Position numbers and translations under genes: made by a program. The notes beneath the pieces were generated by a model, which made no database searches, was not told the DNA's origin, and saw only the letters and a program-made list of their open reading frames with translations. DNA of 38,800 bases from a virus, in the IMG/VR virus record IMGVR_UViG_3300009183_000184, positions 1 through 38,800 of that record. One strand, 5' to 3'. Positions within the stretch are counted from its first letter, which is position 1; the number at the start of each line of letters is the position of its first letter. Positions 16,916 through 38,800 of the stretch are shown here, in pieces.

Positions 16916-19900
16916 TGACCCGCTTTTCCAATCAGGTAAGCAATTCCTAAAGACACAAGCAACTCCAGCGGCAAAGCCCGCTAGTATGCCTATGGGGGAA
17001 TCGCCCCAGCCTTCAGGAGACGGCATTAACTATGAAGATATTGCCAGTGGGCAAGGCAATCATGCTTGGTCTCAGTATGCTAATATTGCAGATGTTAAGG
17101 GTCCAACATCACTTAAGGCACAACAGATAACCAGTCTTAGTGACGAGCAACTAATGGATGCTGTTAAGGCTCCGTTAAGCGGTGAAGAAGTAGCCATGAA
17201 GATGGCGGCTCTTCAAGCCGCTGGTAAGAGAGTTGATGCTTCTACAATTTCAAAGGAAGAGTTTGAAGCATACGACCCTTGGCGTGAAAAACAGCATTTT
17301 AACTTCATGGGTGCTGTTGCTGAAGGTGCAATGTCGGCTGTTAAGGACATTGGCAAAGGTGTGTATTCTGCTGGTACTGACTGGAAGAAACTAGGCTTGG
17401 CTGTTGGCCTTTCTGCTGTTTCATCTCCTGTAGTTGGCTTTGGTGTTGCTTATGGTTCTTCTTTGCTTGAGGGTGCGGCTAGAGGAACAAGAGATTTAGG
17501 CGGTCTTGCTGTTATGGCGGCTAACCATCCTGGGTCTCCTCTTTATAGAATGTTTGTAAACCCTACAAACGATATGAATAAGAAGTATGAAGACTTCTTG
17601 GACCTTGCTAAGTGGAATGCGGATTCTGAAGACATTATTTCTGGTAAGAGTAATGCTTTAATGCCATCAAAGGAGACATATGAAAAACTTTTTGGTAGAG
17701 CATTTGGTAATCAAGTCGATGAATTTATTGGCGTTAACAAGGAACTTGCAACTGCGGCTTCTTATTTCCTAGACCCTACAACACTGTTGATGTTTGCACC
17801 TGCCAACATTGGCGAGAAAATATTTGGCAAGGCGGCGGCGGCGGCTATTAAGTCTGGTGAGGCTGGCAATACCCTTGGTCATGCTATGTCTGCTACTGCA
17901 TCTAGGAACGCTTTTAAGGCAAGTTGGCTTAACTCCCTTGGTGAGAATATGGTTAAGTTCTCTGAAGCCGCAACAAAGCCTATTGATGCCATGTTTGATA
18001 GCATCACGAGGAATGCCGAAGCCGTAACTGGTGCAAGGTCTTCTATTTCCCATGGAGGTACAGTCCGTGTATCCAGAGTTGGTGCTGGTCATGGTGGTAC
18101 AAAGGGACCGACATCTGTCGTTCATGCTGGGATGGGTGCGTTAGGTATGTACTCACTCTTTCACATTCCATATGCTTTACCTATTACATCAGTATACGCT
18201 GGTCTTAAGGGTGTAGGTATGATTGGAGAAACTATTCTTGATGTTGGCAGGAAGGGATTAGAACACAGTTCTACGGTTATGGGTAAGGCTATTAAGGCAT
18301 CACTTCCAATCACAATGTACATGCAAGACCTTGCAAAGACCGCAGTTCATGGTGGCGTGTTTGGTGGTCTTATCGGATATGCGGCTAGTGGCGAAGAAGG
18401 TGCGGCTGGCGGTATCGGAACTGGAGCCGCTCTTGGGGCTATTGGTCACAATGTAGGCTATGCCTATGGAACTTTTAGCGGTCAGTTTGCTAAAGAGGCT
18501 CTATATAAAGAATTTGACAATCACTTTAATGATTTAAAAGAGAAAGGACATATCTTGAAGCATGACCGAGTCCGTGAATTTATTGAAAGAATTAGGGACG
18601 ACCATGGTGATGAAGAAGCAATTCGTGCTATGTCTCATGTGATGGCTCTCGAGAAGAGTAAGAACACGGCTGTTGCATACATGGGTTACAAGGATTTCCT
18701 TGGTGCTTTGGCTAACGACCCTAAGATGTGGGAGTCTGTCATTGGTGAGAATGGTCCTGAAAGAAAACTTTCTCCTACAGGAGAGGTGTTACATAGTGCA
18801 ATGAGGGGAGTTGTGGAAATGGATGGGATTGGAAATGTAGTTAGAGATGGCAACGGAGACCCTATTTTACTTGGAAGGCGTGAGCGGGTAGAGTCACTAA
18901 GACTTACGGAAAAAGATAAAGCCCTTATTGGACCAATGCCTGAACAAGAAGGTGGCGTTGTTAATCCAAATCAAGCCGCTTGGAACGGACTATTCCTAGG
19001 TAAAGATGGCAAGAGTAGCCCTATTAAGATATTTACTGATGGCGAGACAGGCAGAAACCATATTATAATTAACACTGACATGATGGTTGGTGTGCGTGAT
19101 AAGTACGGTAACCCTGTTTACGATACGGCTTTCCGTGAAGGTAGAAGAGCCAATATGGACAAGTCTCAAGACATTCGTGTTCAAGAAACAACTGAAGGAC
19201 CAAGAGTCAGAAGGGAAGAACTACGCAAGAAACCTTGGTTGCTTGAACCAGAAGGTCTTGACGAGTACGGCATGCCCCTGCGGTCTAAGAAGGAAAGAAC
19301 TGTTGCGTATCCTGATGACAGCGTGATTGGCCCTATGCCACCAGAAACTAAGATGGTTTCTAAGAAGTCCGCTGGCGACATCGGTCCAATGCCAGCAGTT
19401 GAAGTTATTTCTGGCAGAAAAATGGTTCAGGCTAAGACTGCTCCTCTTGGAGAGTTGTGGCATGCAATGAACAATGCCTACAGAAAGATTAACCATGGGC
19501 AAGAGATTACAAACTCCGTCCGTGATTGGCTCATCGGCTCTGGCGGTAAGGCTGGAAGAGCATTCTCTGACCGAAAACAAACAGTCCAGTTCATGCACGA
19601 TGTGTATAGAGCCATTGGTGGTGCTTCCAGAGATGGAGAAACTGGGTACAACGGAGCATGGAGAAAGGCTATTAGTGAGTTTGAACAGACTGGTGAGGTT
19701 AAGTCCCCAGAAGTTCAGAGAGCATTTAGAGATTTTATTGAAGAACTTGGTGAATCCATGTTCATTGGTTGGGAAAGCGGTAAGCCATTTGACTATGTAT
19801 ACAGAGGTGGAGACCTAGGCTTTGCTAGAAACCTTGTTGAAAGCGTCAAGGACTCTTTCTTTAACCGCTCGCTTCGTGAAGCAACCAATCTTGGTGCTGA

Positions 19901-22900
19901 CATTAGAAGCAGAGACTTCTTTATTAACTGGTTCAAGGAAGCAAAGGATGGACGCAAGTTCAGAATGGACCCTATCCTTGAGAGTTCCTTTAATGACCTT
20001 GTTCGTTGCTATAGAGACAATGAAATGAAGGATGCTGGCTTGAGAAGAACAGACCTCAACTCCCTTACATCCGCACAACTCAAGAGACAGGCTGAAACAT
20101 ACGGCTTTGAAGACAGGATTGAGATGGACGAAAAGGGTAACTACAAACTTAAGTCAGATGAAAAGTATAACGCTGAACAATTTGCTAAGGCTCAGGAAAT
20201 GGGAATGGAAATGGCACATACATTCCAGACCAACCCAGACCTATTTAATGGCGTAGATGTTCAAGTTGTAACAGACGGAGATGCCAGAGTAGGTACTGTT
20301 GAGTCTAACTTTGTGGCACTTGATGCCGCTAGTCGTGACCCTAATACATCTACAGCCGACACGCTGGCTCAGCGTAGAGGTGCTTTCTTGTTCCAGAATA
20401 AAGATTTTGCAGATGTAGGCGTTGGGATTGACGAAATGCTTACGGCTCAGGCCGAGCAGGTTTATACCAGTGGGGTTTATGCACCACGCACAAAGGGTAG
20501 TTTTGGTGCTAGAGGCAGACCGAGAACTACACCTACTGGCAAACTTCAGGCAGACTTGCTTGAGGCAATGAAGACTGGCAAGAAACTTATCCTTAGGGGT
20601 GTTCCAAACGAAGCCTTATTTGCTATTATCCAGAAGCATGTTCCTAAAAGCGTGTCTGATAACATTAGGCTTCTTGCTCCGCTTATCATTGATGGTGGCA
20701 TTTCTACCGATAATGTTGCTAGAGGTCAGTACCATGGCTTTACTCAGGTAGATAAGGATGGCGTTAAGCGTAACAGAAAAACAGGCGACTCCTTTAATGC
20801 TAGAGAAGTAACATTTGTACCTTACAATTTAGAACTCAGTTGGACTCTTGACAACATCAAGAACCCAGAAATTAATTATGAGCGGGCTCACTTAGCCTAC
20901 AATGTCCAGTCAATGGATATTGATGCTTTTAATAGAAGAATGCATATTCTTTGGAATGAGAGTCCTGAACTTCATGCACTGTATGGAGACATTCAGCAAT
21001 TCATTGACCACACCTATAGAACTGTTGACGAATACAGTGCCAGCAAGGAAATTCCTGCTGTTGATTTCTTCGGGGAAGGTGAAAACGCTAGACAAAAGCG
21101 TAAGTATGTTGTTGCCGCTATTGGTGCATCTCCTAACATTGCTCACCACATGGCTTATAGTCTTGCTGAAGCCGAATGGCATTCGTACCAGTATCAGGAC
21201 AGGAAGCAACAGCAGAACCATCCTTGGCAGAGATTTAGACTTGATGGCTTGACTGGCTTGCAGTCAGTTGACGGAGAGCGGGCTAGAGTGCGTATCAATG
21301 AGACGCAGTATTACAGAAGTATGGTTCCTACGCCTACCTCTGAGGCTGGCTCCATGTGGGTTGATAGTGCTGGTAAGTCAGTGATGTATCAACCTGCTGA
21401 CGGAATAACTCCTGACCTAAGTAAAGTGCCTAACATGAGTCCTCAGAAACTTGGACGCAGGTACGACATGAACTCTGAACAGTGGAAGACAGGTTTTATT
21501 GGAAGAGCCGCAGAAGAGCAACCTACTTGGGTTGATAAGGGAACACCTATGGGGAAGATTGAAACACTTAAGGATAAGGTAGTTGAATTTAAAATTAACC
21601 CAAAGGCTGGAACTGTAACCCTTGAAATAATGACAAAGAAGGGTGGAGAGTCTGTTTCTCATGTTTACGCTGAAGCGTCTAAGGACGGCAAGCGTATAAG
21701 CCATGTAGCGGTTTCAACAATGCCTTCTTGGTTAAGGCGTGGCTATGGTGATGTTGCTTATTCTGAGTTAATTGAAAGAGTAAGAGCGATGGATTTTAAG
21801 GCTTTTGATGGAGAGATTATAAATTCAGCCGCCTTGCCAATGCGTCTTAGAAATAATCGTTTTGGTCATGGAGGTACTTTTATTGTTGGACCTGACTGGA
21901 CGACCATTGTCGATAAGGCTACACAGGCTGAAGTTGTTAGGAGACTTGATAATGATATTGACCTTGGAGTTGAGCATCAAGGCGTAAGAGTTAGTTCGCC
22001 TATTGTTGGTTCTGCATTCTACCAGACGGCTGAGATTGGTGATGGTCCTATCCCCATTAACATGGAGACAATGAAGGACTTTAATCAATCTACAACAGAC
22101 AAGCCTTATAACGCTGATGCTGTTGCTAAGCGATTGAATGACCCACTTGCTCTAGTCAAAGAACTTAACAAACAGAATGAATTTAGGCCCAATAAATCTA
22201 AGCCATTATTCCAACCAGCAGACACATTTGGTGCTAAGTCTCAAGACGAAGCGGACTTCCTTAGAAGTAACTACAAGTGGGCTAACGAGGAAGCAAAGGA
22301 CATTTTTGAGTCTGAAGCGTTAAAGCGTTTTGCTAACCAATTCCGTGTAGGACAGGAACCTGTGACTGTAGTTAAGTGGGCATTGGAAGAGTGGAAGCGT
22401 GTACATGGAGACACTGATGTGTACAACTCTCAGTTTGTTACTGGCAGACCTGTTGTTTTAATTGGAACTCACGGCACTCAAGGTGCTGATTTAATGAAAA
22501 CAATGACATTTAGAGGCGATAAGATAGGCTCTAACACAGATACTGACACAGCAAAGAAGGGTATATTCCATGCAGGTACTCAAGCAACATCTGGCACATA
22601 CGGACGAGTTGTGTCTAGTATGTATGAAGTGCGTTCTAATCTGACTAAGGCAGTAAGTTTGTTAGATTGGAGTCCTAAAGCGGCTTCTGAAAGCAAAATT
22701 AGAGAAGCGGCAAGAAACATGAGGGAATCCATAATGCAATACATGAGTTTAGGTGCAGATGAAAAACAAGCAATTACATTCCTTGAAAGTAGATTTAACG
22801 AAAATCTTTCTGAATACTTTGGTAATACTGTATTTGACTCAATTAAACCATCGCTTAAGGGTGAAATCATTAAATATGCCAATAACCTAGAAAGTTACGC

Positions 22901-25900
22901 TAAAGCCTTTGAAGCCGAGTTCCAAGAAAAGAACAGACAACAGGTTCGGTCTGTTATTGGATACAAGAATCCGCTAGTTGTTGATTATAAAGGTGCTATT
23001 TGGCATCCAATGAATGATGCTAATCTTATTAATTCTGCAATTGCAAATGGACACGATGGTTTAATTGTCTTGAATACAAGAGATTCTTATAGTGGAGTTG
23101 GCTATGAAGACAATTTATATGTAACATTAAAGGAAAACAGAGGCACTCATATTGCAACAATTGACTCATCCCTTACAGGCAAAGCAAAGAACCGTGGGCT
23201 TGGAGGTCAAGAGGGTGGCAGATGGTTGCAACAGCCGTCTGACGATGTGCTACCTGCTGGTGCATTCGGACCTAATAACCCTGACACTGTGAGACTTGCT
23301 AGAGCGTATAAGACTACTACTGGCCTTGCCACTGGTGACGGAAAATTTGTTATTAAACTTAACCCTAACAAGTCGTTTAAGATTGGTAGGGAATACGACA
23401 TCCTTAAGCACGACCCTTACAATCCTAAGGTTAGGGCGGCTTACAAGGCTTTTGGCGATGAAACGCTGGTGCAGATGCAACACATCATTGACGCTGGTTA
23501 TACCCCAGAGATGCATGGTTTGAACAGTGAGCCTTATTCTAGAAGTGCCGATGCCATTGCAGACATTAGAAACAATAAGCGTCTCAAAGTTCTTTCCACT
23601 GATAAAGCCTACGGCACATCAGCAGTTTCTGCAAAAGATATTACTGAAAATCCGTTACTAGCAATGTCTAAGTTTAAGGACGCTAATGGAGTTCCGATGC
23701 GTGTTCTTGATGTGTTTAGGTTTGTGCATGATTTCTTTGGTCACAGTGAGCGTGGCAATGGGTTTGGTCAACTTGGAGAAGAGAACGCATGGGATGTCCA
23801 CGCCAGAATGTATAGCCCTCTTGCTAGACGAGCAATGACAACTAGCACTAGGGGTCAAAACTCTTGGGTTAACTTTATCCATGAACCTAACATGGAAATT
23901 AATAGGAAGCGTGACATGGTCCGTGGTCTTATTCGTGATGGAAGAGTTGCTGAAGCAATGGAAATCCAAAAAACTATTGGTTCAATTCGTTTTGCTGACC
24001 AGAAGATTGGCCTGATGCCTGAGTGGGTTAGCAGACTTGATGAAGAGTTGACACCAATTGAACGACAGGTGTATGGTACGCATGCTACTTCCGAGAAGAC
24101 ATTTGGTCTTTATCAGAATGCAGACGGAGACTCTCATTCTATCCATAGCCCTGAGGCTGAAGAATTTGCTAGAATCGGTAAGGAGTCTCAGGCCGCATCT
24201 AAGTTTGGTACATCAGTAGACATGAAGAATGCAGACGGCTACAAGGGACACACATTGCTTATGTCTGGTGAAGGTAAGGCTCAGGCTTCTATCTCTCCTT
24301 CTGGCGAACTTGGTTCTGTCATTAAGGGTGTCAGTGGTACGGCAAGCGATGTTGAGGCTGTGGTTAAAGCCGCACTATCAACTGGCAAGGTCAGATGGCT
24401 TAACGCCTTTGACACTGTCCTCCCTAGTATGTACGATAAGTTTGGCTTTGAGGCAGTTGCTAGATTGAAGTTTGTTGACGACTACAGACCTGACGGCTGG
24501 GATTATGTCAAGTATGCTAAGTTCAATAGCGGTAGACCTGATGTTGTCTTCATGGCTTATGTCGGTGAAGGCAGGGCTACCCCTTACGAGCGTAACGCCC
24601 GCAAAATACCTACGCTGTTGTCCTATGACGATGCCGTTACACTTACACAGGAGAAGGCTCAGCATGCCAGAGACAATGGCTACCTGATGCAACCTGCCGA
24701 TATGAGCGGGCCTGACCCAGTCAAATTTGAGAACCTCAGGAGCGACACCAAGAAAGACTTAGCGTTTCGTGATGCGATATTTGATTATGCTGAGTTTGTT
24801 AGAATGACAGACGAGCGTATCAAGGCCAGCCAAGAGCCTATGAATAGAGGTCAAATCCTTGCTACTTGGTTCAGGAAGAATGTTGACAGAACTGGTGGTG
24901 GTCAATCTCCTATGACTTGGAACTATGCTGTTGGTGCTGAAGGTAAGCGTATCCCTATTGAAGAGTTCACAAGAGAACACCTTGATGAACTTAAGGATGA
25001 GATAGCCAGAAAAGACCCTAACTTTAAAAAGGTTTACTCTGAATGGGAAAAGACTGTTGGAGAACTGTATACTACAGAGGCTGACAAACTTGCCGCAGAA
25101 CTCAGGGCTCAAGTTGAAGCAGAACAAGCACAGCATACGAATCAAATTCTTGCTGGTGAAACAGGGACACAGAGAGGCAAGCGTCTTGCAAGAGAAAAGT
25201 ATCTCGCAAAGGTACTAGATGCTATATCAAATAAAAAGGCAAGAGGTAGAATTACTTCTGTTGAGTCTATCTTTAGGTCAAACAAAAAGGCCGCAGAAAA
25301 CAGAAGGGCTATACTTGAAGCAAAAGACAAAATGCAACAGCGTCAGGGTAAGTTAAAGGACATAGTTGAACTTGAATTTGTTAATGAAAATGAAGATGCA
25401 GAAAGAAGAGGAATTACTAGGGATAGCGATGAGTATCCTCACAAGGATTTGGCAGAAGACATTGCACAAGAAGTAGACCTTCGTATCGCAGAAGAAGAAG
25501 CACAGGCAGTTCGCAAAAAAGAAAACCTTGCCGACCCAGACCAAGTGGATGAAACAACTGAAATTGAGCCAGAAGGTCTTTCAAAGGAAGACTATGAGAA
25601 ACTTGCAAAATCAAGAGAAGAAAGAAGAAAGGCAAGTGGAGAACGAAGCACTTCTGAAATGTTCTTTGTTGCAGATGAAGAGACTGGAATTGTTCAGGAA
25701 GATAAGATTCTTAAATATGAACCGTTTACGCCAGAAGAAATTGAAAGACTGTTGCGTCAAGAAAATAACAAATCATTTGAAGAAGGTGGGTTCAGGACTT
25801 ATGATGAAACACCCAAGGAGGGAAGCACTACATCTGAATTTGACTATGAACTACAAAGAAGAATAGCCTACAATAATAAACTTGCTGAGATTAAGAAACT

Positions 25901-28900
25901 TACTGAACAAGGACTTGCAAAGGGAAATGGTGTTAATCTAAACACAGGCACTAACTACAGGGTTGGTTCACTTGAGTACCTTGCTCATTATAAGTATGCA
26001 AATTCCGTATGGTTTAATGCAGAGGGTGAATCTATCTTGAGAGAAATTAACGATGGAAAAACAGTTACTACCATTGAAGGCATTGTTGATAGAAGATTCC
26101 TTAACGAAAAGATTCCAGACACGGAAATAACAATTAAGATTGCTGGTCAACCTGATATAAAGAAAAACTTTAGAGATTTGCCAGAGAAGGTAAGGGCAGA
26201 ACTTCTTGATGAAACAAAGGCTAAGCCTGTTTATCCTCCTGAATATCAAGCAGTCATTGACCATAAGCGTATGTTGCTTGATAAATTGCAAAACGCAGAC
26301 ACTAGGCTTTCTACTCCACTTGAGCATTTAATGCCGTTGTTTGGATTGTTTTCCTTGTGGGGCTTCGATGTCAATGAAGCATTAATTTCAAAGGACTTTG
26401 TAGCAGGACATACTGAAGGTGCTATCCCACTTAATGCTACTGGTGCTGAAACCTTAAGGGCTGTACTTTCACAGAGTGGAGTTCTCTTTACTGGATTTGA
26501 TAAACCTGCTAGGTTTACGGATGCACTCAAGGAGTTGCCTGACTTAATGACAACAACCATGGAGGTTCTTTCTGAAATGAGAGAGGGTGCTTACTATGCA
26601 AAGAGAGATAGTAAAGGTAAGATTATTGCAACAAGTGATATTTACTTAGGTAGAAAAGATAACATTACCCTTGACCCCAAGACAATGGAACCGATTAAGG
26701 TGAAGGGTGAGAATCCATTAATCACCGAGTGGCTTGATACTTATCTTGCTAGATACCCAGAGAATAGACATCTTGTTGCTACAATAGTTGAAGGAGAAAC
26801 AAAATCTCCTCTTACCAAGAAAGAATTAGACCGTAAAATTGATAATAGATACAAAGGCAATAATGGTCTGAAGGAGCAATTCCAGAAGAGAAACGGAAGA
26901 AATCCAAACCCCGAAGAGGCTAAAGCAATTCGTGAAAAGATTAGCAAAGAAGTCATTGCTAAACATGAGTTAAAACAACTTGTTGGAAGACCTGAATTCG
27001 TTGGTTCATTCCTAGACGACAGTAGAGGCAAGAAGAATGTCAATTACGGAGACAAGCCTAGCATTGAATATAGAGCATACCTTGAACTTAAGAAACAAAA
27101 CGATGCTCAAGTAGCAAAGAAAGGTGGCAAAGGTTTTAGTGAGATTGCCCTGAAAGATGCGGCAAGACAGACTGCCAAAGAAATAAGATATGAATTCATT
27201 GAGTACATGTTTGACCAGATGAATGCTTATGTTCTTGAACAGGCAGATGTATTTGAAGAAGGCCAAGGACTAATCCCGAAGGATTACAAGACCATACAAG
27301 CAGAACGAAGAAGTCAGGCTAACTACAGGGCTGATACCAGAAGCAAGGCCGTTGCTGATGCCCATGAAGGTGAAGCGGCTAACCTTTCCTCTACACAGGA
27401 AGGTACTGGCGGCATGGGAAGACCTGCAAGTGAGGATGTTTCTACGACTACCAGAGAATTTACTACGGAAGAAGTTGGTGCTACAAAAGAAGCGGAAGTT
27501 GAAATCAAAAGAACTTGGAGAGAACAGGCTGACGCTAAGGGTACATTCCAAGACTCTGAAGGTAAGGGTAAGATTGTCGTATTTGAAAAGAATGTTGGCA
27601 TCAAGGGTGACAAGACTGCTTACAAAGTGTACATCGGTGACAGAATGGTTGGTGGTGCTGTAGGTCTTGATGAAGCCCAGAAGATGTTTGAAACACAACT
27701 TGCTAAGTTTGAAGCCGAAGGTGGCATTGCCAACGAAGCACAAGCCGAGGTTGCTATAGAACAGCCAACACAGGCAACCCCTGTTGCTCAAACCCCAGCA
27801 ACGCATCCGCTTGGCGAAGGATACCTAGCCATGATGAGAGCCGCTGAAGGCGAAGACCAAGGTGCATTTGAGGCTATCCTTGCAGGGAAGAAGGATGCTC
27901 CTGTCAAACCTGTAGCGGAAACAAAGCCTGTTACTAAACCTGTTGAGCCTAAGCCTACGGCTGAAGCACCTAAGAGTAAGTTGTCTGAAAAACTTCAGGG
28001 TCTTACTACTACAAAGTACTTCTTAACTGAACAAGGCAGTAGAGGAATGATTGAGAAAGAAGGACCGACATGGTTCCTTGACAAAAAACATGACGGAATG
28101 GAACTTGCACAAAGGCTTAGAAAGAGATGGTCTATAATTAGCGATGCAGGTAAGCGTATTGCTGTTGAAAGAATTAATCGCACCCTGAAGGAAGTTAAGG
28201 ACAGAACTGTAAGGCAAAAGGAATGGATGAAAGAACCTGAACAGCGAAAGAAGGATGCTGAACTTGCTCTTCGACTGATACAGCAAAATAAGGATGGAAC
28301 TAACCTGACTAACGCTGAGTTTGCAGAAGTTGAAAAGACTGATAAATATAAAAAGATTAGAAAAGAATACGATGACGCAGTTGAGGCATACAACGAAGCA
28401 TACAGCAAGAGGGGCAATCCGTTTGATGATGTTATAGATATTCTCGCAGAGGAAATTGACGCAGAGCCAGAAACTCCTACCACAAAGCCAGCCCAGCCCG
28501 CTTCCTACAAACAGAACACGACAGCAACGCCTCTTCCGTTTGCTGGGTACGATACCCCTATTGGTCCTGAGCGTCCACCGCTTGCCTCGCCCTCACCTAA
28601 GCCTGTTGCTAAACCTGTAACCCCTACTGCTAAGCCAAAGCCTAAGCCCGCAACTCCTGCTGTTGAAGCAGTCAAGACTCAGAACGCTACGGCTCAGGTT
28701 AAGAAAATTGTACAGACGCAAGTTGCACAGGCTCAAGTTAAACCTGTCAATCAGGTTGGTGCATCTCAAGTTGTACTTCAAACCCAAGGTCCGCTTGCGG
28801 CTTCTACTAGGGAAAACCTTGACCACACCCAGTCTGTTCTTGGCATCAAGGACCACTTGACGCTTAAGATGAATGGAACTAGGATTTCCACAGCAGACAA

Positions 28901-29852
28901 GCGTTACATTGTTACTGGCAAGGCTGGCAAGTATGATGTTGTCATGCAAGCCCACGCAAGTCCTTACACTGGTCAGATTATAGACCAGCGTGTGGTTGCT
29001 ATTGTACCTACGCTTGAGCATGCACAGTTGTGTATCCGAGAGTTTGACAACTTACAGCGTAGTCTGGCTGAACTGGAGGGTGTCAATACATCCGCTAACC
29101 TTCAGGCTTCGGCTCCAGTCATGGCTCCCCAGCAGATTGCTCAGGTTGCTACCCAATTGGCTCAGGCTAACGCCCAGAACCCAGTACCCCCTGTTACCTC
29201 TCCTAAGACACAAGCCGAGGTTCACCCTCAATTCAATGCTTGCGTGGTCGGTCTTAGTAAGTTGCGTATCCCTCAGGCTCTCGCCAAGGAACTAGTTACT
29301 AACGCTGTGAATGCCCTAGGAAGCAAGGCTGGTGTAGCCGAGATAGTAGCCCACGCCTTGCATGCTAATCAGGTCACAGCGGCTCAGATAGCCCATGCTA
29401 ATCAGGTGTTCGTAGCCACAGCCAACCAGACCACAGGCCAACCTAACCCTAACGGCATCCATCAGGTAGTCGTATTGCCATCCTTGGCTGGTCTTAATGC
29501 GGCTTGCGGTGCGGTTGTGCCTAGACCTCCTACTATTGCTGGTCTTGGCTGGCCTCCCAACTCTATCCCATCCCCTGTCCAGAATGCCAGTAAGCCTATT
29601 TGGGTTCCTACGGCTGAAAGCCTAGAAAGATTTAACAGGCTTATTAGATTCAATCGTTACAGTAACAAGGTTAAACTACCTAATGGAGCAGAAGGTATCG
29701 GAACTACATTGGTCAATGACCTTGGCTATACAATCATGCAGACATCTCCGTCTAAGTTTAGACTGTTTGCTCCTAACAAGATGCTAATCTCTGTAGCCGA
29801 TAACGAACAACAGGCTTGCGATGACCTACTTAAGCACCACTTCAAGAAATGA
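16902..29852 (+). CDS. Giant polyvalent virion-type protein (ART, two GNAT-like and other modules)
   Basis: This is a single 4316-residue frame. Regions: Pro-rich leader; hydrophobic Gly/Ala segments about 165-195, 406-448 and 470-527 (glycine zippers); GNAT-like domain about 1560-1665 with R-R-G-Y-G-D near 1612; ADP-ribosyltransferase-like domain about 1840-2095 (G-T-H-G-T, then I-F-H-A-G-T-Q-A, N-P-L-V, G-H-D-G-L-I); a module about 2121-2340 with F-V-H-D-F-F-G-H at 2274-2281; a second GNAT-like domain about 2430-2565 (YDKFGFEAVAR, DGWDY, RPDVVFM); coiled coils about 2700-2960; a Pro/Lys linker near 3880-3930; three small similar alpha/beta units toward the C-terminus. This matches the polyvalent-protein concept: many effector domains carried in the virion and injected. 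ATG 16902 overlaps the previous gene by 14 bases; a TTG just before it is the alternative. Domain calls are by pattern, and much of the chain is unassigned. Confidence 0.75.
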   Translation: MPTNNDPLFQSGKQFLKTQATPAAKPASMPMGESPQPSGDGINYEDIASGQGNHAWSQYANIADVKGPTSLKAQQITSLSDEQLMDAVKAPLSGEEVAMKMAALQAAGKRVDASTISKEEFEAYDPWREKQHFNFMGAVAEGAMSAVKDIGKGVYSAGTDWKKLGLAVGLSAVSSPVVGFGVAYGSSLLEGAARGTRDLGGLAVMAANHPGSPLYRMFVNPTNDMNKKYEDFLDLAKWNADSEDIISGKSNALMPSKETYEKLFGRAFGNQVDEFIGVNKELATAASYFLDPTTLLMFAPANIGEKIFGKAAAAAIKSGEAGNTLGHAMSATASRNAFKASWLNSLGENMVKFSEAATKPIDAMFDSITRNAEAVTGARSSISHGGTVRVSRVGAGHGGTKGPTSVVHAGMGALGMYSLFHIPYALPITSVYAGLKGVGMIGETILDVGRKGLEHSSTVMGKAIKASLPITMYMQDLAKTAVHGGVFGGLIGYAASGEEGAAGGIGTGAALGAIGHNVGYAYGTFSGQFAKEALYKEFDNHFNDLKEKGHILKHDRVREFIERIRDDHGDEEAIRAMSHVMALEKSKNTAVAYMGYKDFLGALANDPKMWESVIGENGPERKLSPTGEVLHSAMRGVVEMDGIGNVVRDGNGDPILLGRRERVESLRLTEKDKALIGPMPEQEGGVVNPNQAAWNGLFLGKDGKSSPIKIFTDGETGRNHIIINTDMMVGVRDKYGNPVYDTAFREGRRANMDKSQDIRVQETTEGPRVRREELRKKPWLLEPEGLDEYGMPLRSKKERTVAYPDDSVIGPMPPETKMVSKKSAGDIGPMPAVEVISGRKMVQAKTAPLGELWHAMNNAYRKINHGQEITNSVRDWLIGSGGKAGRAFSDRKQTVQFMHDVYRAIGGASRDGETGYNGAWRKAISEFEQTGEVKSPEVQRAFRDFIEELGESMFIGWESGKPFDYVYRGGDLGFARNLVESVKDSFFNRSLREATNLGADIRSRDFFINWFKEAKDGRKFRMDPILESSFNDLVRCYRDNEMKDAGLRRTDLNSLTSAQLKRQAETYGFEDRIEMDEKGNYKLKSDEKYNAEQFAKAQEMGMEMAHTFQTNPDLFNGVDVQVVTDGDARVGTVESNFVALDAASRDPNTSTADTLAQRRGAFLFQNKDFADVGVGIDEMLTAQAEQVYTSGVYAPRTKGSFGARGRPRTTPTGKLQADLLEAMKTGKKLILRGVPNEALFAIIQKHVPKSVSDNIRLLAPLIIDGGISTDNVARGQYHGFTQVDKDGVKRNRKTGDSFNAREVTFVPYNLELSWTLDNIKNPEINYERAHLAYNVQSMDIDAFNRRMHILWNESPELHALYGDIQQFIDHTYRTVDEYSASKEIPAVDFFGEGENARQKRKYVVAAIGASPNIAHHMAYSLAEAEWHSYQYQDRKQQQNHPWQRFRLDGLTGLQSVDGERARVRINETQYYRSMVPTPTSEAGSMWVDSAGKSVMYQPADGITPDLSKVPNMSPQKLGRRYDMNSEQWKTGFIGRAAEEQPTWVDKGTPMGKIETLKDKVVEFKINPKAGTVTLEIMTKKGGESVSHVYAEASKDGKRISHVAVSTMPSWLRRGYGDVAYSELIERVRAMDFKAFDGEIINSAALPMRLRNNRFGHGGTFIVGPDWTTIVDKATQAEVVRRLDNDIDLGVEHQGVRVSSPIVGSAFYQTAEIGDGPIPINMETMKDFNQSTTDKPYNADAVAKRLNDPLALVKELNKQNEFRPNKSKPLFQPADTFGAKSQDEADFLRSNYKWANEEAKDIFESEALKRFANQFRVGQEPVTVVKWALEEWKRVHGDTDVYNSQFVTGRPVVLIGTHGTQGADLMKTMTFRGDKIGSNTDTDTAKKGIFHAGTQATSGTYGRVVSSMYEVRSNLTKAVSLLDWSPKAASESKIREAARNMRESIMQYMSLGADEKQAITFLESRFNENLSEYFGNTVFDSIKPSLKGEIIKYANNLESYAKAFEAEFQEKNRQQVRSVIGYKNPLVVDYKGAIWHPMNDANLINSAIANGHDGLIVLNTRDSYSGVGYEDNLYVTLKENRGTHIATIDSSLTGKAKNRGLGGQEGGRWLQQPSDDVLPAGAFGPNNPDTVRLARAYKTTTGLATGDGKFVIKLNPNKSFKIGREYDILKHDPYNPKVRAAYKAFGDETLVQMQHIIDAGYTPEMHGLNSEPYSRSADAIADIRNNKRLKVLSTDKAYGTSAVSAKDITENPLLAMSKFKDANGVPMRVLDVFRFVHDFFGHSERGNGFGQLGEENAWDVHARMYSPLARRAMTTSTRGQNSWVNFIHEPNMEINRKRDMVRGLIRDGRVAEAMEIQKTIGSIRFADQKIGLMPEWVSRLDEELTPIERQVYGTHATSEKTFGLYQNADGDSHSIHSPEAEEFARIGKESQAASKFGTSVDMKNADGYKGHTLLMSGEGKAQASISPSGELGSVIKGVSGTASDVEAVVKAALSTGKVRWLNAFDTVLPSMYDKFGFEAVARLKFVDDYRPDGWDYVKYAKFNSGRPDVVFMAYVGEGRATPYERNARKIPTLLSYDDAVTLTQEKAQHARDNGYLMQPADMSGPDPVKFENLRSDTKKDLAFRDAIFDYAEFVRMTDERIKASQEPMNRGQILATWFRKNVDRTGGGQSPMTWNYAVGAEGKRIPIEEFTREHLDELKDEIARKDPNFKKVYSEWEKTVGELYTTEADKLAAELRAQVEAEQAQHTNQILAGETGTQRGKRLAREKYLAKVLDAISNKKARGRITSVESIFRSNKKAAENRRAILEAKDKMQQRQGKLKDIVELEFVNENEDAERRGITRDSDEYPHKDLAEDIAQEVDLRIAEEEAQAVRKKENLADPDQVDETTEIEPEGLSKEDYEKLAKSREERRKASGERSTSEMFFVADEETGIVQEDKILKYEPFTPEEIERLLRQENNKSFEEGGFRTYDETPKEGSTTSEFDYELQRRIAYNNKLAEIKKLTEQGLAKGNGVNLNTGTNYRVGSLEYLAHYKYANSVWFNAEGESILREINDGKTVTTIEGIVDRRFLNEKIPDTEITIKIAGQPDIKKNFRDLPEKVRAELLDETKAKPVYPPEYQAVIDHKRMLLDKLQNADTRLSTPLEHLMPLFGLFSLWGFDVNEALISKDFVAGHTEGAIPLNATGAETLRAVLSQSGVLFTGFDKPARFTDALKELPDLMTTTMEVLSEMREGAYYAKRDSKGKIIATSDIYLGRKDNITLDPKTMEPIKVKGENPLITEWLDTYLARYPENRHLVATIVEGETKSPLTKKELDRKIDNRYKGNNGLKEQFQKRNGRNPNPEEAKAIREKISKEVIAKHELKQLVGRPEFVGSFLDDSRGKKNVNYGDKPSIEYRAYLELKKQNDAQVAKKGGKGFSEIALKDAARQTAKEIRYEFIEYMFDQMNAYVLEQADVFEEGQGLIPKDYKTIQAERRSQANYRADTRSKAVADAHEGEAANLSSTQEGTGGMGRPASEDVSTTTREFTTEEVGATKEAEVEIKRTWREQADAKGTFQDSEGKGKIVVFEKNVGIKGDKTAYKVYIGDRMVGGAVGLDEAQKMFETQLAKFEAEGGIANEAQAEVAIEQPTQATPVAQTPATHPLGEGYLAMMRAAEGEDQGAFEAILAGKKDAPVKPVAETKPVTKPVEPKPTAEAPKSKLSEKLQGLTTTKYFLTEQGSRGMIEKEGPTWFLDKKHDGMELAQRLRKRWSIISDAGKRIAVERINRTLKEVKDRTVRQKEWMKEPEQRKKDAELALRLIQQNKDGTNLTNAEFAEVEKTDKYKKIRKEYDDAVEAYNEAYSKRGNPFDDVIDILAEEIDAEPETPTTKPAQPASYKQNTTATPLPFAGYDTPIGPERPPLASPSPKPVAKPVTPTAKPKPKPATPAVEAVKTQNATAQVKKIVQTQVAQAQVKPVNQVGASQVVLQTQGPLAASTRENLDHTQSVLGIKDHLTLKMNGTRISTADKRYIVTGKAGKYDVVMQAHASPYTGQIIDQRVVAIVPTLEHAQLCIREFDNLQRSLAELEGVNTSANLQASAPVMAPQQIAQVATQLAQANAQNPVPPVTSPKTQAEVHPQFNACVVGLSKLRIPQALAKELVTNAVNALGSKAGVAEIVAHALHANQVTAAQIAHANQVFVATANQTTGQPNPNGIHQVVVLPSLAGLNAACGAVVPRPPTIAGLGWPPNSIPSPVQNASKPIWVPTAESLERFNRLIRFNRYSNKVKLPNGAEGIGTTLVNDLGYTIMQTSPSKFRLFAPNKMLISVADNEQQACDDLLKHHFKK

Positions 29853-31126: not shown

Positions 31127-31253
31127 TGATGGTTTTGGTTGCTTCTATCATTGCTGGGAGGAACATGTCTATCACGCTGGCGTGAACGCCTAGTGATATT
31201 GATGCCGATTCCATGGATGAATTGTATTTCTTTTTAGTTGGAGTATTAATCAT
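31071..31253 (-). CDS. 60-residue hypothetical protein
   Basis: The ORF starts at ATG 31253, just inside the end of the metallophosphoesterase gene (8-base overlap), and ends inside the winged-helix gene. The protein has a polar start (MINTPTKKKYNSS), a central hydrophobic helix (HASVIDMFLPAMIEATKTINEQI) and a basic tail. I recognise no family. A TTG nine bases upstream is an alternative start. Support is mainly the tight overlap chain on both sides. Confidence 0.45.
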   Translation of the reverse strand: MINTPTKKKYNSSMESASISLGVHASVIDMFLPAMIEATKTINEQIKIKANRESLQNSQS

Positions 31254-32028
31254 TTGTGTCAAAGTCTATTGGTGTTACCCACTTACCGCCTACCTTATGG
31301 GCTTGAAGTATCTTCCAGTCCTTGCCCCTGACCCAGCCGTAGCACCAGCCGTTGCCCCATGTAGAGGAGTTGAGGTGGTTCTTAGCGTAGCCAGCGGTAC
31401 GCTGTTTGCCTAGCCAGCCAGCACAGAAGCCTACCACGCCCTTGTGACGCTTGGCATTGGCTTGGGTAATGGTATGGAGGTGGCCTATTACGCAAGCACC
31501 ACCGCTAGGAGCGTAATGGATAGCATGCTCCTTAACGCTGTTCTGGTTGGCTGTATAGCCATGGCAAAAAACAATAGGGCCGAGCCTGTAGGTTCCGTCT
31601 TCCGCATGGTACTTCTTGATGGTCTTGCATCCAACTTCTTTTAAAGTCGATACAATGTAGTCAATAATGTCCTTGCAATAGTCCCTGATGATACCACTAC
31701 CGCTCGACTCCATAGTTTTAAATAAACGGTCTTCATGGTTTCCAAAAAGATATACATGGGGTTTGGTTCTTTTGATGAATTCTATTCCTTGGGAGATATC
31801 TTGTTCGAGAGAGTCGTTTACATCTTTACCCTCTGCTCCCTTGCGGAGAGCCTTGATATCAAAGCCATCCCCACCATGGATACGCAAGTCAGGCTGGAAC
31901 CGCTCCATGAAGGCAACGAGTGCGTCAGTGCATGACTCGTCCTCCATATTTCCATGGTTATCGGAAAAGAATACAAACTTAGTCCACTTGCTTTTCTTTG
32001 CTTTTGGTCTTGATTTTGTTTTTTTCAT
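31246..32028 (-). CDS. Calcineurin-like metallophosphoesterase
   Basis: The 260-residue protein carries the full two-metal phosphoesterase signature in order: S-D-N-H-G (D23, H25), H-G-G-D (D54), G-N-H-E-D (N97, H98), C-H-G (H156) and G-H-L-H (H183, H185). Substrates of phage members include nucleic acids (Mre11/SbcD-like), cyclic nucleotides and phosphoproteins; this single-domain enzyme gives no further clue. The basic N-terminus (KKTKSRPKAKKSK) might bind nucleic acid. ATG 32028 is chosen because the longer frame starts with TTG well inside the upstream gene. It sits in the leftward unit that begins with the RecE-like nuclease, so DNA processing or host takeover is plausible. Confidence 0.85.
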   Translation of the reverse strand: MKKTKSRPKAKKSKWTKFVFFSDNHGNMEDESCTDALVAFMERFQPDLRIHGGDGFDIKALRKGAEGKDVNDSLEQDISQGIEFIKRTKPHVYLFGNHEDRLFKTMESSGSGIIRDYCKDIIDYIVSTLKEVGCKTIKKYHAEDGTYRLGPIVFCHGYTANQNSVKEHAIHYAPSGGACVIGHLHTITQANAKRHKGVVGFCAGWLGKQRTAGYAKNHLNSSTWGNGWCYGWVRGKDWKILQAHKVGGKWVTPIDFDTND

Positions 32029-32188
32029 ATACAGGTATGGTTCTGTGCGAGCGGGGTTTAATGATGTCAATTTCTCTAAGGATAGCCTCTAGTTCTTCTG
32101 GAGTAAACGATGCGTATATTCCTCTACCAATAGCACGACCAGCCACTAAGCGGAACATTTCAATTCCCTTGGTCTTTTTCTGGTTCAT
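31979..32188 (-). CDS. Small basic hypothetical protein
   Basis: This 69-residue protein starts at ATG 32188 and overlaps the phosphoesterase gene by 50 bases. It has a likely helix (FTPEELEAILREIDII) and a strongly basic C-terminus (YEKNKIKTKSKEKQVD). I recognise no family. The overlap is larger than usual, but the amino-acid pattern is protein-like and fills an otherwise empty stretch in the operon. Confidence 0.5.
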   Translation of the reverse strand: MNQKKTKGIEMFRLVAGRAIGRGIYASFTPEELEAILREIDIIKPRSHRTIPVYEKNKIKTKSKEKQVD

Positions 32189-34992: not shown

Positions 34993-35676
34993 TCAAGCGG
35001 AAATAGCAGAGAAGTAATCCCTTAATCTACGCACTAGGGCTACCCCTGTTTCCTTGTTCTGGAACCGCTCTAGGAGTTTGTCGCCAGTATAGTTGGTCGT
35101 AATGATTGTAGTCTTAAGATTGGAGGTTCTCTCGTCAATAACTGCAAAAAGGTCTGATTCCATTCTCTGCGTTAAACGCTCCTTGCCCAAATCGTCAAGA
35201 ACTAGGATGGGGCAAGAGATAAGAATGTCAAGAACATTGCCATGCTTTCGGTCCTCAAAGCCCTTTTCAATCAATCCTTCAAACTTACGCATCTGGAGGA
35301 AGAACGACTTATCTGGGTAATGCTTTCGCCAGAGTCTATTGAACAGTCTCCATGCCGCCCTAGACTTGCATGTTCCAGTCTCTCCATGCAGGATTAGAGA
35401 CGACTTCTCCTCGGAAGGATGCCAGTCCTCGGCCTTGAGCAACAAAGGGCTCCTATGGACATCTGTGGCTATGTATCCCTCTGGGTACTCGGGGTGCTTG
35501 TTAGCAAAAGCAATGCCCTTCTTTTCAAAGACATCCTTATAGGTATATGGGTGGTCCCAATAATCCTTTGTCATGTAGCACTCTTCGCAGACACGAACAG
35601 ATACATCAAAGAACTTCTTAGTTTCATTCCATGCTGGAACGGCTTGCTTATCGCAATGTACGCACTTGTAGTTCAT
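34993..35676 (-). CDS. DnaC/IstB-like helicase loader ATPase
   Basis: This AAA+ protein (227 residues) probably loads the host replicative helicase at the phage origin, the role of lambda P or DnaC. It has an N-terminal zinc ribbon (C5, C8, C30, C33), Walker A G-E-T-G-T-C-K-S at 98-105, Walker B I-L-V-L-D-D at 157-162, sensor-1 I-I-T-T-N at 191-195 and an arginine-finger region A-L-V-R-R-L-R-D at 213-220. The Cys at 103 replaces the usual Gly of the P-loop. The gene is fourth in the unit that starts with the O-like initiator, and its ATG overlaps the previous stop. Confidence 0.85.
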   Translation of the reverse strand: MNYKCVHCDKQAVPAWNETKKFFDVSVRVCEECYMTKDYWDHPYTYKDVFEKKGIAFANKHPEYPEGYIATDVHRSPLLLKAEDWHPSEEKSSLILHGETGTCKSRAAWRLFNRLWRKHYPDKSFFLQMRKFEGLIEKGFEDRKHGNVLDILISCPILVLDDLGKERLTQRMESDLFAVIDERTSNLKTTIITTNYTGDKLLERFQNKETGVALVRRLRDYFSAISA

Positions 35677-35894: not shown

Positions 35895-36205
35895 TGTTTG
35901 CCCTCCTTGGCGGAGTTCCAGTCTTTTGCAATAGTCACATAAGGTGGATACGGCATATTAGCAGAGGCATGTTTAAGCATCAAATCTCCTGCCCGTTTAA
36001 GTTTATCAACCTCGGCCTTGAGGCGGGCGTTCTCATCACGCTCGGAACGCAACAGGCGGGAAGTGGGGCTGGTCATTAGGGCTTCGACCTCGGCCTTAAA
36101 TCCGTCAGACGCAGACTTTAAATCAGTCACCTCGGCCTTGAGTCGGGCAATCTCCTGACGGAGTTCGTCTCTGGTCCAGAATATAATATTAGAATCCCTT
36201 GGCAT
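35891..36205 (-). CDS. Coiled-coil protein in the replication unit
   Basis: The 104-residue protein is mostly coiled coil: heptads are clear at about 12-45 (TRDELRQEIARLKAEVTDLKSASDGFKAEVEAL) and 55-75 (ERDENARLKAEVDKLKRAGDL). The two R/L-K-A-E-V blocks look like an internal repeat. It overlaps the initiator gene by 17 bases and the next gene by four. I recognise no family. An oligomeric scaffold or regulator for the replication proteins is possible from context only. Confidence 0.65.
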   Translation of the reverse strand: MPRDSNIIFWTRDELRQEIARLKAEVTDLKSASDGFKAEVEALMTSPTSRLLRSERDENARLKAEVDKLKRAGDLMLKHASANMPYPPYVTIAKDWNSAKEGKQ

Positions 36206-36842
36206 GGTCGTTTTTGGTTAAAGGTTTACCTGACTCGGTTCTGGCTGGTTCAAATAAACCAACCCAGCCATTCTTAATTGACAGTTCAATGGATATAATA
36301 GACTTACTCTCGCCCCACTTCTTTAGGTCAGCAAACTGCTTCTCTATCGTGGATGGAGTTAACTTCTTCTTCAGTTCCTTGCGGTAATCTATCCATGCCC
36401 CCCATGCCCTGTGAAACTCTTCAGAATCAAAAGGAAAAACAGAAGCATCAACAAGACCTTTTATCTTTTTAATATCCTCTTTATTATCTTCTTTACTATA
36501 TGGGTGCAATGAATTGCATGGGGGAGGTGCAATAGATTGCATGGGGGGAGTGCAATGCACTGCATCCCTGAGTGCAATAGAATGCACTGTATGCAATACC
36601 CTGCGTCCAACAGCATTGTACTCACGCACAACAAGTTTCTGCTCAATTAACTTGGCAAGAATGTTCTGCATTTGTCGCTTCTCTACATTAAGGCAGTTCT
36701 GGAGATAGTTATTAGATGCCCAGCATCCATCGTCACCATCCAGTGCGTCAATAAGAGAGAAGCACACCTTCTCGGTCAGTGTCAGAGAGTTAGTCTGGAA
36801 CACCTCCTTGGGCATCCATAGCCCAGTAAATTTAAGGTTCAT
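36189..36842 (-). CDS. O-like replication initiator with internal origin
   Basis: This 217-residue protein has an N-terminal winged helix-turn-helix (about 18-80: TLTEKVCFSLIDAL...SNNYLQNCLNVEKRQMQNILAKLIEQKLVVRE), a low-complexity Pro/His/Cys-rich middle (about 81-113), an acidic/basic stretch and a C-terminal domain (about 128-217) with HRAWGAWIDYRKELKKKLTPSTIEKQFADLKKWG. It fits phage initiators such as lambda O, which bind iterons within their own gene and recruit a P/DnaC-like partner. The iteron array at 36504-36600 encodes the middle segment, and the helicase loader is three genes downstream. ATG 36842 is chosen since it is seven bases after the -10 of P6 (leaderless). Confidence 0.8.
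   Translation of the reverse strand: MNLKFTGLWMPKEVFQTNSLTLTEKVCFSLIDALDGDDGCWASNNYLQNCLNVEKRQMQNILAKLIEQKLVVREYNAVGRRVLHTVHSIALRDAVHCTPPMQSIAPPPCNSLHPYSKEDNKEDIKKIKGLVDASVFPFDSEEFHRAWGAWIDYRKELKKKLTPSTIEKQFADLKKWGESKSIISIELSIKNGWVGLFEPARTESGKPLTKNDHAKGF
36459..36503. other. AT-rich, G-free stretch next to the iterons (putative unwinding element)
   Basis: Bases 36459-36501 on the + strand contain no G and are about 80 percent A+T, giving a pyrimidine-rich strand directly beside iteron 1. This is the arrangement of lambda ori, where an AT-rich strand-asymmetric segment beside the iterons opens first. On the coding strand it encodes a Lys/Glu/Asp-rich piece. Confidence 0.6.
36504..36600. repeat. 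Iteron array, probable replication origin
   Basis: Four tandem repeats begin at 36504, 36527, 36550 and 36572 (+ strand), each starting GTGCAAT. Each holds a dyad of the form TGCAAT-NN-ATTGCA; copies 1 and 2 are perfect, copies 3 and 4 imperfect. A fifth half-site TGCAAT is at 36592-36597. Copies 1 and 2 end in G5-6 A. The periods of 23, 23 and 22 bases are not multiples of three, so conservation is at DNA level and not in the protein. Confidence 0.8.
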
Positions 36843-36849
36843 CGTTTCC

Positions 36850-36879
36850 ACTCTAACCACCAGCCAAGGGGGGTGTCAA
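36850..36879 (-). promoter_or_regulatory. Early promoter P6 (C-tract type)
   Basis: On the minus strand TTGACA (36879-36874), six C, an 18-bp spacer, and TAGAGT (36855-36850). The TGA stop of the upstream HTH gene is the TGA of TTGACA. The initiator ATG begins seven bases after the -10. Confidence 0.75.
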
Positions 36880-37337
36880 GCGGTTGGTTCTTTTGACTCA
36901 ATTTCAATAATTGTCTCACCCTTTAGCATCTTGTTGATGTCATCCTGCGATATTCTCTGGATGCGATGCTCTATCACTGCGGTAGGCTGGTCTTGAAGTA
37001 CTGCAATTTTGTCAATAATAATACCAAGAGCAGTAGGCAAAAAGTTCGGATGTATGTTGTCGATTTCATTGTTAAGTCTATTAGCCCCCTTCATGCCAGC
37101 ATTCTTCATTATGTTAGCCATGTTAGTCTTCCAGTCCTTATCGGACAGGCCAGTCATGTCGCCCTTGATAGCAGACACGCTATGCTCAGACAAGCCAGTT
37201 TCCTTGACTATCTCGTCTCTCGTTATCCCTTGCTTGAGCATTTCTTCACAACGCTGTCTACGCTCAGGCTCAATGTTTTTGGCGTTGCTGTAATGCTGGT
37301 TGTTACGAATTATCTCTTTCTTTGGCTCATATTCCAT
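36876..37337 (-). CDS. HTH DNA-binding protein, regulator or small terminase-like
   Basis: The 153-residue protein has a helix-turn-helix at about 24-58 (ERRQRCEEMLKQGITRDEIVKETGLSEHSVSAIKGD) and a helical remainder containing LPTALGIIIDKIAVLQDQPTAVIEHR near 101-126. That second part resembles phage HTH proteins that I have seen annotated both as regulators and as small terminase subunits. Since no other small terminase is visible, it could fill that role, although its early-strand position argues for a regulator. ATG 37337 is chosen; the longer frame runs back across the divergent promoter P4. No strong promoter of its own is visible; a TTGACT lies opposite P4. Confidence 0.65.
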   Translation of the reverse strand: MEYEPKKEIIRNNQHYSNAKNIEPERRQRCEEMLKQGITRDEIVKETGLSEHSVSAIKGDMTGLSDKDWKTNMANIMKNAGMKGANRLNNEIDNIHPNFLPTALGIIIDKIAVLQDQPTAVIEHRIQRISQDDINKMLKGETIIEIESKEPTA

Positions 37338-37352
37338 GAAAAAGCATTGTGC

Positions 37353-38666: not shown

Positions 38667-38738
38667 ATCCCATTAGTTCAGCGGATAGAACAGTGGTTTT
38701 CTAAACCATTAACCTTGGTTCGATTCCAAGATGGGATA
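38667..38738 (+). tRNA. tRNA-Arg (anticodon UCU)
   Basis: All four stems fold: acceptor ATCCCAT/ATGGGAT, D-stem GTTC/GAAC with an 8-base loop, anticodon stem GTGGT/ACCAT with loop TTTCTAA (anticodon TCT), and T-stem CTTGG/CCAAG with loop TTCGATT. Discriminator A; no CCA is encoded. It reads AGA, a codon visibly frequent in the phage genes. Confidence 0.95.
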
Positions 38739-38743
38739 CTCTT

Positions 38744-38800
38744 GCCCTGTTAGCACAGTGGTAGTGCGTCTGTTTTGTAAACAGAAGGTCGTAGGTTCAA
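38744..38800 (+). tRNA. tRNA-Thr (anticodon UGU), truncated by window end
   Basis: The 5' acceptor GCCCTGT, D-stem GCAC/GTGC, anticodon stem TCTGT/ACAGA with loop TTTGTAA (anticodon TGT) and the start of the T-arm (GTAGG TTCAA) are present. The 3' acceptor lies beyond the window. It is five bases from tRNA-Arg. Confidence 0.9.

Follow-up and report, generated by a model that had tools for sequence, protein, structure and literature searches.

A phage replication origin of the lambda type very probably lies inside the replication initiator gene (36189-36842) of IMG/VR virus record IMGVR_UViG_3300009183_000184, the 38.8 kb of which (positions 1 to 38,800) we analyzed and refer to here as the window. 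The original prediction of an origin made of iterons within the gene, and the presence of an unwinding element beside them, are supported by comparative data, i.e., a layout kept in 44 distinct sequences, constraint on the AT-rich element, clade-specific dyads that change in step with residue 59 of the initiator, and a helicase loader gene in 54 of 55 loci. In the mechanism that we propose, the winged-helix domain of the initiator would bind four 14-bp dyads, each through a single dimer as in the case of lambda O, and the assembled complex would strain the adjoining AT-rich element (about 36456-36501), causing it to open. The C-terminal domain of the initiator, or the opened strand, would recruit the DnaC-like loader (34993-35676), which would then place the replicative helicase of the host. 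A second origin may be present elsewhere. Sequence alone can thus place, with good confidence, the origin of a phage lineage that is uncultured and widely sampled.

Dyads and an AT-rich element in the initiator gene

The initiator gene is encoded on the minus strand, with its ATG at 36842 and its stop at 36189, and specifies a protein of 217 aa with an N-terminal winged helix-turn-helix domain (residues ~5-92), a disordered linker (~93-140) that is encoded by the putative origin DNA, and a C-terminal helical domain (141-217). A profile search matched the protein to PHROG 678, ‘replication initiation O-like’ (E=1.5e-14). The Pfam family HTH_36 (PF13730) scored 23.7 bits (E=4.2e-5), slightly under its curated cutoff of 25; apart from this and weak HTH hits Pfam gave nothing, including no match to the lambda O family Phage_rep_O (PF04492) and no RepA_N domain (PF06970), to which the likeness is at the fold level only (E ~0.007). 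By the tests run, we therefore class the protein as a PHROG 678 O-like initiator and not as a member of PF04492 or RepA_N.

An AlphaFold2 model built from 38 aligned relatives placed helices at 44-51 and 55-67 and strands at 71-75 and 81-85 in a winged helix modelled with confidence, and also has a helical C domain; pLDDT was ~40-60 across the linker, where the repeats and the AT tract are encoded. No match in a PDB fold search passed E=0.001 and none was better than E=0.007; entries 4pt7, 4pql and 5kbj, with initiator and Rep-DNA titles, were among the top matches, and we take these to be the RepA_N plasmid initiators of PMC5703833. Replisome organizers and RepA-like initiators are among the viral fold matches. 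A search of GTDB genomes for a host returned a single weak match (Spirosoma, 47 residues), and no near relative was found among cultured phages by portal protein, the best being 27% identical.

As predicted, a DnaC/IstB-like helicase loader of 227 aa is encoded three genes downstream on the same strand (34993-35676), with matches to PHROG 50 (E=6e-20), PHROG 3277 (E=6.7e-17) and, above its cutoff, Pfam IstB_IS21 (E=2.2e-8). The loader gene is found downstream of the initiator in 54 of the 55 loci that we fetched, the exception (L080) being explained by a contig that ends too early, and a gene for an ERF annealing protein lies further along in 54.

The four tandem repeats that had been predicted inside the initiator gene are present. 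Numbered from the gene start, they are dyad 1 (TGCAATAGAATGCA, 36573-36586), dyad 2 (TGCAATGCACTGCA, 36551-36564), dyad 3 (TGCAATAGATTGCA, 36528-36541) and dyad 4 (TGCAATGAATTGCA, 36505-36518), the last of which adjoins the AT-rich element. All four are 14 bp long and consist of a 4-bp centre flanked by 5-bp arms, and from 36505 upward their starts are separated by 23, 23 and 22 nt, or about two helical turns. Counted from the gene start, 4, 4, 5 and 5 of the 5 arm positions match; two of the dyads contain TGCAATNNATTGCA exactly, and the remaining two have one mismatch each. A degenerate fifth match (36593-36606), with 3 of 5 arm positions matching, is probably not a site. No comparable cluster of dyad matches was found elsewhere in the 38.8-kb window, and random synonymous recoding of the initiator produced a four-dyad chain in 36 of 100,000 trials, which is a conservative result because the repeats partly dictate the amino acids themselves. 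Neither 22 nor 23 is divisible by 3, so adjacent dyads are read in different frames. The expectation that every copy would be read in a different frame held for neighbours but not for dyads 1 and 3, which are 45 nt apart and share a frame (VHSIA and MQSIA).

The adjoining strand-asymmetric, AT-rich segment (about 36456-36501) is purine-rich on the coding strand and G-free on the plus strand, and is the putative DNA unwinding element. It lies beside the repeats as originally described, but its G-free run extends over 46 bases (36456-36501) rather than 43. By nearest-neighbour energy, positions 36459-36501 form the least stable 43-mer in the whole window. The conserved core of the element, CATATARTAAAGAAGATAATAAAGAGGATA (36473-36502, minus strand), is nearly invariant across the 44 relatives according to column counts and a codon-conservation test. 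A DnaA-trio reading of the element was considered by eye, and the pattern mismatched.

Clustered palindromes under a winged-helix protein would also fit a repressor, and the fold of the initiator is MarR-type-like. The dyads might accordingly be an autoregulatory operator, through which the protein limits its own transcription from within the gene while replication starts elsewhere. We consider this improbable, since the dyads lie ~255 nt inside the coding sequence, rather than at a promoter, and an operator leaves unexplained the conserved low-stability AT element at a fixed distance, the O-like family match and the syntenic loader. Autoregulation may nevertheless occur on top of origin function.

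The repeats could otherwise act in RNA, as hairpins in the initiator mRNA that regulate translation or stability: a 5-bp hairpin is possible at each dyad, and the arms covary. RNA hairpins should favour G-U pairs, whereas the arm mismatches were of the G-T type in 20 cases and of the A-C type in 23, counts that are about equal and therefore reveal no RNA-strand preference. In addition, the period of 22-23 nt and the tie to a DNA-reading helix, described below, fit protein-DNA binding, and an RNA-level role for the repeats is highly unlikely.

Conservation of the layout and putative recognition of the half-sites

Related initiators were sought in IMG/VR by one protein scan and one alignment scan. 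The two scans yielded 55 genes including the window's own, representing 44 distinct sequences in which the origin layout is kept. In all relatives, the dyads end right before a near-invariant CATATAAYAAAGAAGATAATAAAGRRGATAAAGATACA on the coding strand (CATATAAYAAAGAAGATAATAAAGRRGATA), at offsets of -14/15, -37/38 and -60/61 from the CATATA element, with an additional dyad at -82 in the clade of the window; most relatives have three dyads and the window's clade has four. Fewer were found in L009 and L108, which have two clear dyads, and in L113 and L116, which have one together with a broken reading frame. The 14-mer chain test misses the TGCGG clade (L091), a result of the clade's degenerate middle unit and of the strictness of the arm rule.

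Two further features of these arrays were observed. In L113 and L116 (~3300-3450), where a single dyad is left, the C-terminal half is out of frame, and the pattern in L113 is consistent with two 23-bp units (46 bp) having been lost from between identical dyads, by deletion or as an assembly effect. The spacers between dyads (e.g. 36519-36527 and 36542-36550 in the window, and likewise in L007, L084 and L091) contain runs of ~5-9 G or C; such runs occur in nearly all relatives, with the coding strand carrying sometimes G and sometimes C.

Codon conservation was assessed over 617 pairs with less than 60% protein identity, taking the same amino acids elsewhere as the expectation. In the AT element (codons 114-125), the fraction of identical codons was 0.89 versus 0.63 for matched amino acids, and the maximum reached by permuting codons within sequences was 0.52 (200 rounds). 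For iteron codons, the fraction was 0.61 versus 0.46 expected, with a permutation maximum of 0.39, and the remainder of the initiator gene was at expectation (0.44 versus 0.45). These results indicate that the AT element and the iterons are constrained at the DNA level, in agreement with the selection on DNA that had been proposed.

The same test bears on whether there is a DNA element at all, or whether a low-complexity linker of Pro/His/Cys and Lys/Glu/Asp gives rise to the repeats and the AT tract as by-products. The amino-acid sequence does carry part of the repeat signal, and the AT 22-mer also occurs in unrelated KEDNKED-coding genes, rich in Lys, Glu and Asp and without dyads, which account for 9 of its 21 exact IMG/VR matches; the 22-mer was accordingly rejected as a stand-alone origin signature. 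However, synonymous codon conservation far over expectation already disfavours a by-product, neighbouring copies differ in both frame and encoded peptide, and among the 21 exact matches it is in this initiator family only that the 22-mer comes with a CATATAAY prefix and dyads. We thus attach very little probability to a purely protein-level origin of the repeats.

The dyads differ in sequence between clades. Half-sites are TGCAA in the window and TGCAG, TGCGG, GGCAA, GGAAG or GGAAA in other clades, and in each case the opposite arm matches. In an association scan, we compared each column of the protein with each half-site base, leaving out the residues encoded by the repeats themselves, and residue 59 was the top column for base 1. 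This residue, which is Gln59 in the window (codon 36666-36668, minus strand), lies within the recognition helix predicted by AlphaFold2 (55-67). Q was found with T in 21 of 21 genes and R or K with G in 21 of 21, so that base 1 and residue 59 agree in all 42 intact genes; L111, with an ambiguous consensus CGCAG, was counted among the T-type sites. This is the comparative result that points to recognition of the repeats by the N domain. Contacts of Arg with G and of Gln with A are among the most common amino-acid/base contacts in DNA recognition. At base 5, A occurs with N at residue 60 in 27 of 29 cases, and 12 of 13 sites with G have a different residue there. The scan gave no clean association between base 3 and recognition-helix residues; within the GG class, S at residue 54 pairs with A at base 3.

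On an N-domain tree built without the recognition helix, site type and residue 59 each switched an inferred 7 times, and they switched 9 times each on a whole-protein tree built without the recognition helix and the linker; on a C-domain tree, site type changes 11 times. On strongly supported branches there are 4 independent pairs, all of which agree (sign test, p=0.125), and this small number limits the phylogenetic strength of the association. The link between residue 59 and base 1 is therefore perfect by count (42 of 42) and moderate by strict phylogeny.

Tandem palindromes are also a general feature of packaging and partition sites. A site of that kind would not be expected to sit in a replication initiator gene, beside an unwinding-type segment and near a loader, with its sequence coupled to the recognition helix of the same protein, and we regard this function for the array as scarcely credible.

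Cassette exchange and comparison with known origins

Comparison of individual relatives revealed breaks in identity at the AT element. L094 and L080 are 0.78-0.98 identical over the N domain and dyads and ~0.6 past the AT element, whereas L094 and L097 are ~0.6-0.8 identical ahead of it and 0.98 at it and just beyond; for the window and L004, the two halves show identities of 0.88 and 0.65. The DNA-reading domain therefore moves together with its own targets, with the joint at the AT element, and these alignments indicate that the N domain and dyads have recombined as a cassette against C-terminal halves. It follows that some of the switches on the trees are exchanges and not new co-mutations.

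A broader but tentative hypothesis, which we think is possible though not probable, is that cassette exchange is how these phages diversify their origin specificity; it would occur at the near-invariant AT element, which would serve as both unwinding element and recombination joint, while a small recognition-helix code would set the target (Q or R/K at residue 59 specifying T or G, and residue 60 specifying the fifth base). Selection might maintain the diversity as a way around incompatibility with related replicons, satellites or origin-directed nucleases, cf. PLE and Odn.

In phage lambda, iterons and an AT-rich tract lie in the middle of the O gene (PMC7466680), and the annotated iterons, at 39034, 39054, 39078 and 39101, are followed by an A-/purine-rich tract. 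The predicted likeness to lambda ori was borne out for the layout: in the window, the origin would likewise lie mid-gene, and the two systems have in common four dyad iterons 20-24 bp apart, often with a central AAAA, a purine-biased AT-rich tract on their downstream side, and a loader gene downstream. Lambda O consists of an N-terminal DNA-binding domain, a flexible linker and a C domain that binds P, with an O dimer on each iteron (PMC6022878), and the order of N domain, linker and C domain is the same in the window protein. The repeats themselves differ from those of lambda, as had also been anticipated, both in sequence and in length (a 14-bp dyad in the window, 18-19 bp in lambda), and unlike in lambda, the loader is DnaC/IstB-like. 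Lambda O itself matches PF04492 at 5.7e-36 and PHROG 678 at 1.7e-35. PHROG 678 and 391 are common to the two initiators, and a direct profile comparison between them gave no significant match.

Other systems share parts of this arrangement. In the staphylococcal RepA_N plasmid pSK41 the Rep boxes are central in rep, and in pPR9 the N domain is HTH_36 (PF13730), the Pfam family closest to the window protein, and is swapped together with the origin (PMC5703833). Both resemble the window in having the origin inside rep and a protein made up of a winged-helix N domain, a dispensable origin-encoded linker and a C domain that recruits the replisome. In contrast, they are Firmicutes plasmids with antisense RNA copy control, and the C domain of pSK41 Rep binds DnaG, whereas the window comes from a phage and encodes a DnaC-like loader. 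Bacillus phage SPP1 has oriL within gene 38 and a separate loader, gp39 (PMC6316719); its gp38 is an origin-binding protein with repeats and an AT-rich unwinding element in its own gene, but, unlike in the window, where neither was found, SPP1 also has a second origin (oriR) and encodes a DnaB-type helicase. In the Vibrio satellite PLE, the N domains of RepA covary with the iterons and swap repeatedly while the C domain is shared (PMC8263062), a specificity swapping like that seen here, although the PLE iterons are noncoding and outside the initiator gene.

By analogy, the putative origin is of the kind used by lambda O, SPP1 gp38 and pSK41/pPR9 Rep, with no new mechanism. While this origin type was already known, what is new is the comparative set that ties a recognition helix to its target, together with cassette exchange at the AT element; exchange of origin modules, known for plasmids and satellites, is here seen in environmental phages. 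Because the same stretch of DNA gives both protein and target, the 44 initiators, each with its own target inside the gene, are a ready-made set for how a winged-helix initiator sets origin specificity.

Gene neighbourhood of the initiator

The window ORFs that we scanned yielded no phage helicase, primase or polymerase, which makes the host helicase the likely partner of the loader. A GC-skew check, also suggested beforehand, placed the cumulative maximum for the window near 35.5-36 kb; this peak is close to the proposed origin but is not independent support for it, because gene orientation switches nearby.

A putative promoter of the initiator gene (36845-36879, minus strand) consists of TTGACA-CCCCCC followed 17 nt on by TTAGAG, and would drive transcription through the origin. 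It is one of eight exact copies of TTGACACCCCCC in the window, which have their first base at 131, 379, 600, 37353 and 37959 on the plus strand and at 36879, 34869 and 33508 on the minus strand. The copies are mostly just ahead of gene starts, with a -10-like hexamer (TTATAA, GTAAAA, TTAGAG or similar) ~17 nt on, and TTGACACCCCCC has the appearance of a recurrent promoter whose spacer opens with a C-run. Elsewhere, at least 10 copies occur in L147, three each in L003-L005, and none in more distant initiator loci.

Upstream of the initiator, a gene for a 154-aa protein (36876-37340, minus strand), with weak transposase-like and Mu Gp27-like matches, is found near the initiator in 49 of the 55 loci, in either orientation. 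At the end of the record, a tRNA-Arg(TCT) gene (38667-38739, plus strand) is followed by what by eye is the start of a second tRNA, cut by the record end (38667-38800); the record is therefore probably incomplete at 38,800. One third of the record is occupied by an ORF of 4317 aa (16899-29852, plus strand) with no Pfam match at E 0.001, and a metallophosphoesterase-like protein (PHROG 221, E=6e-11) is encoded at 31246-32070 on the minus strand.
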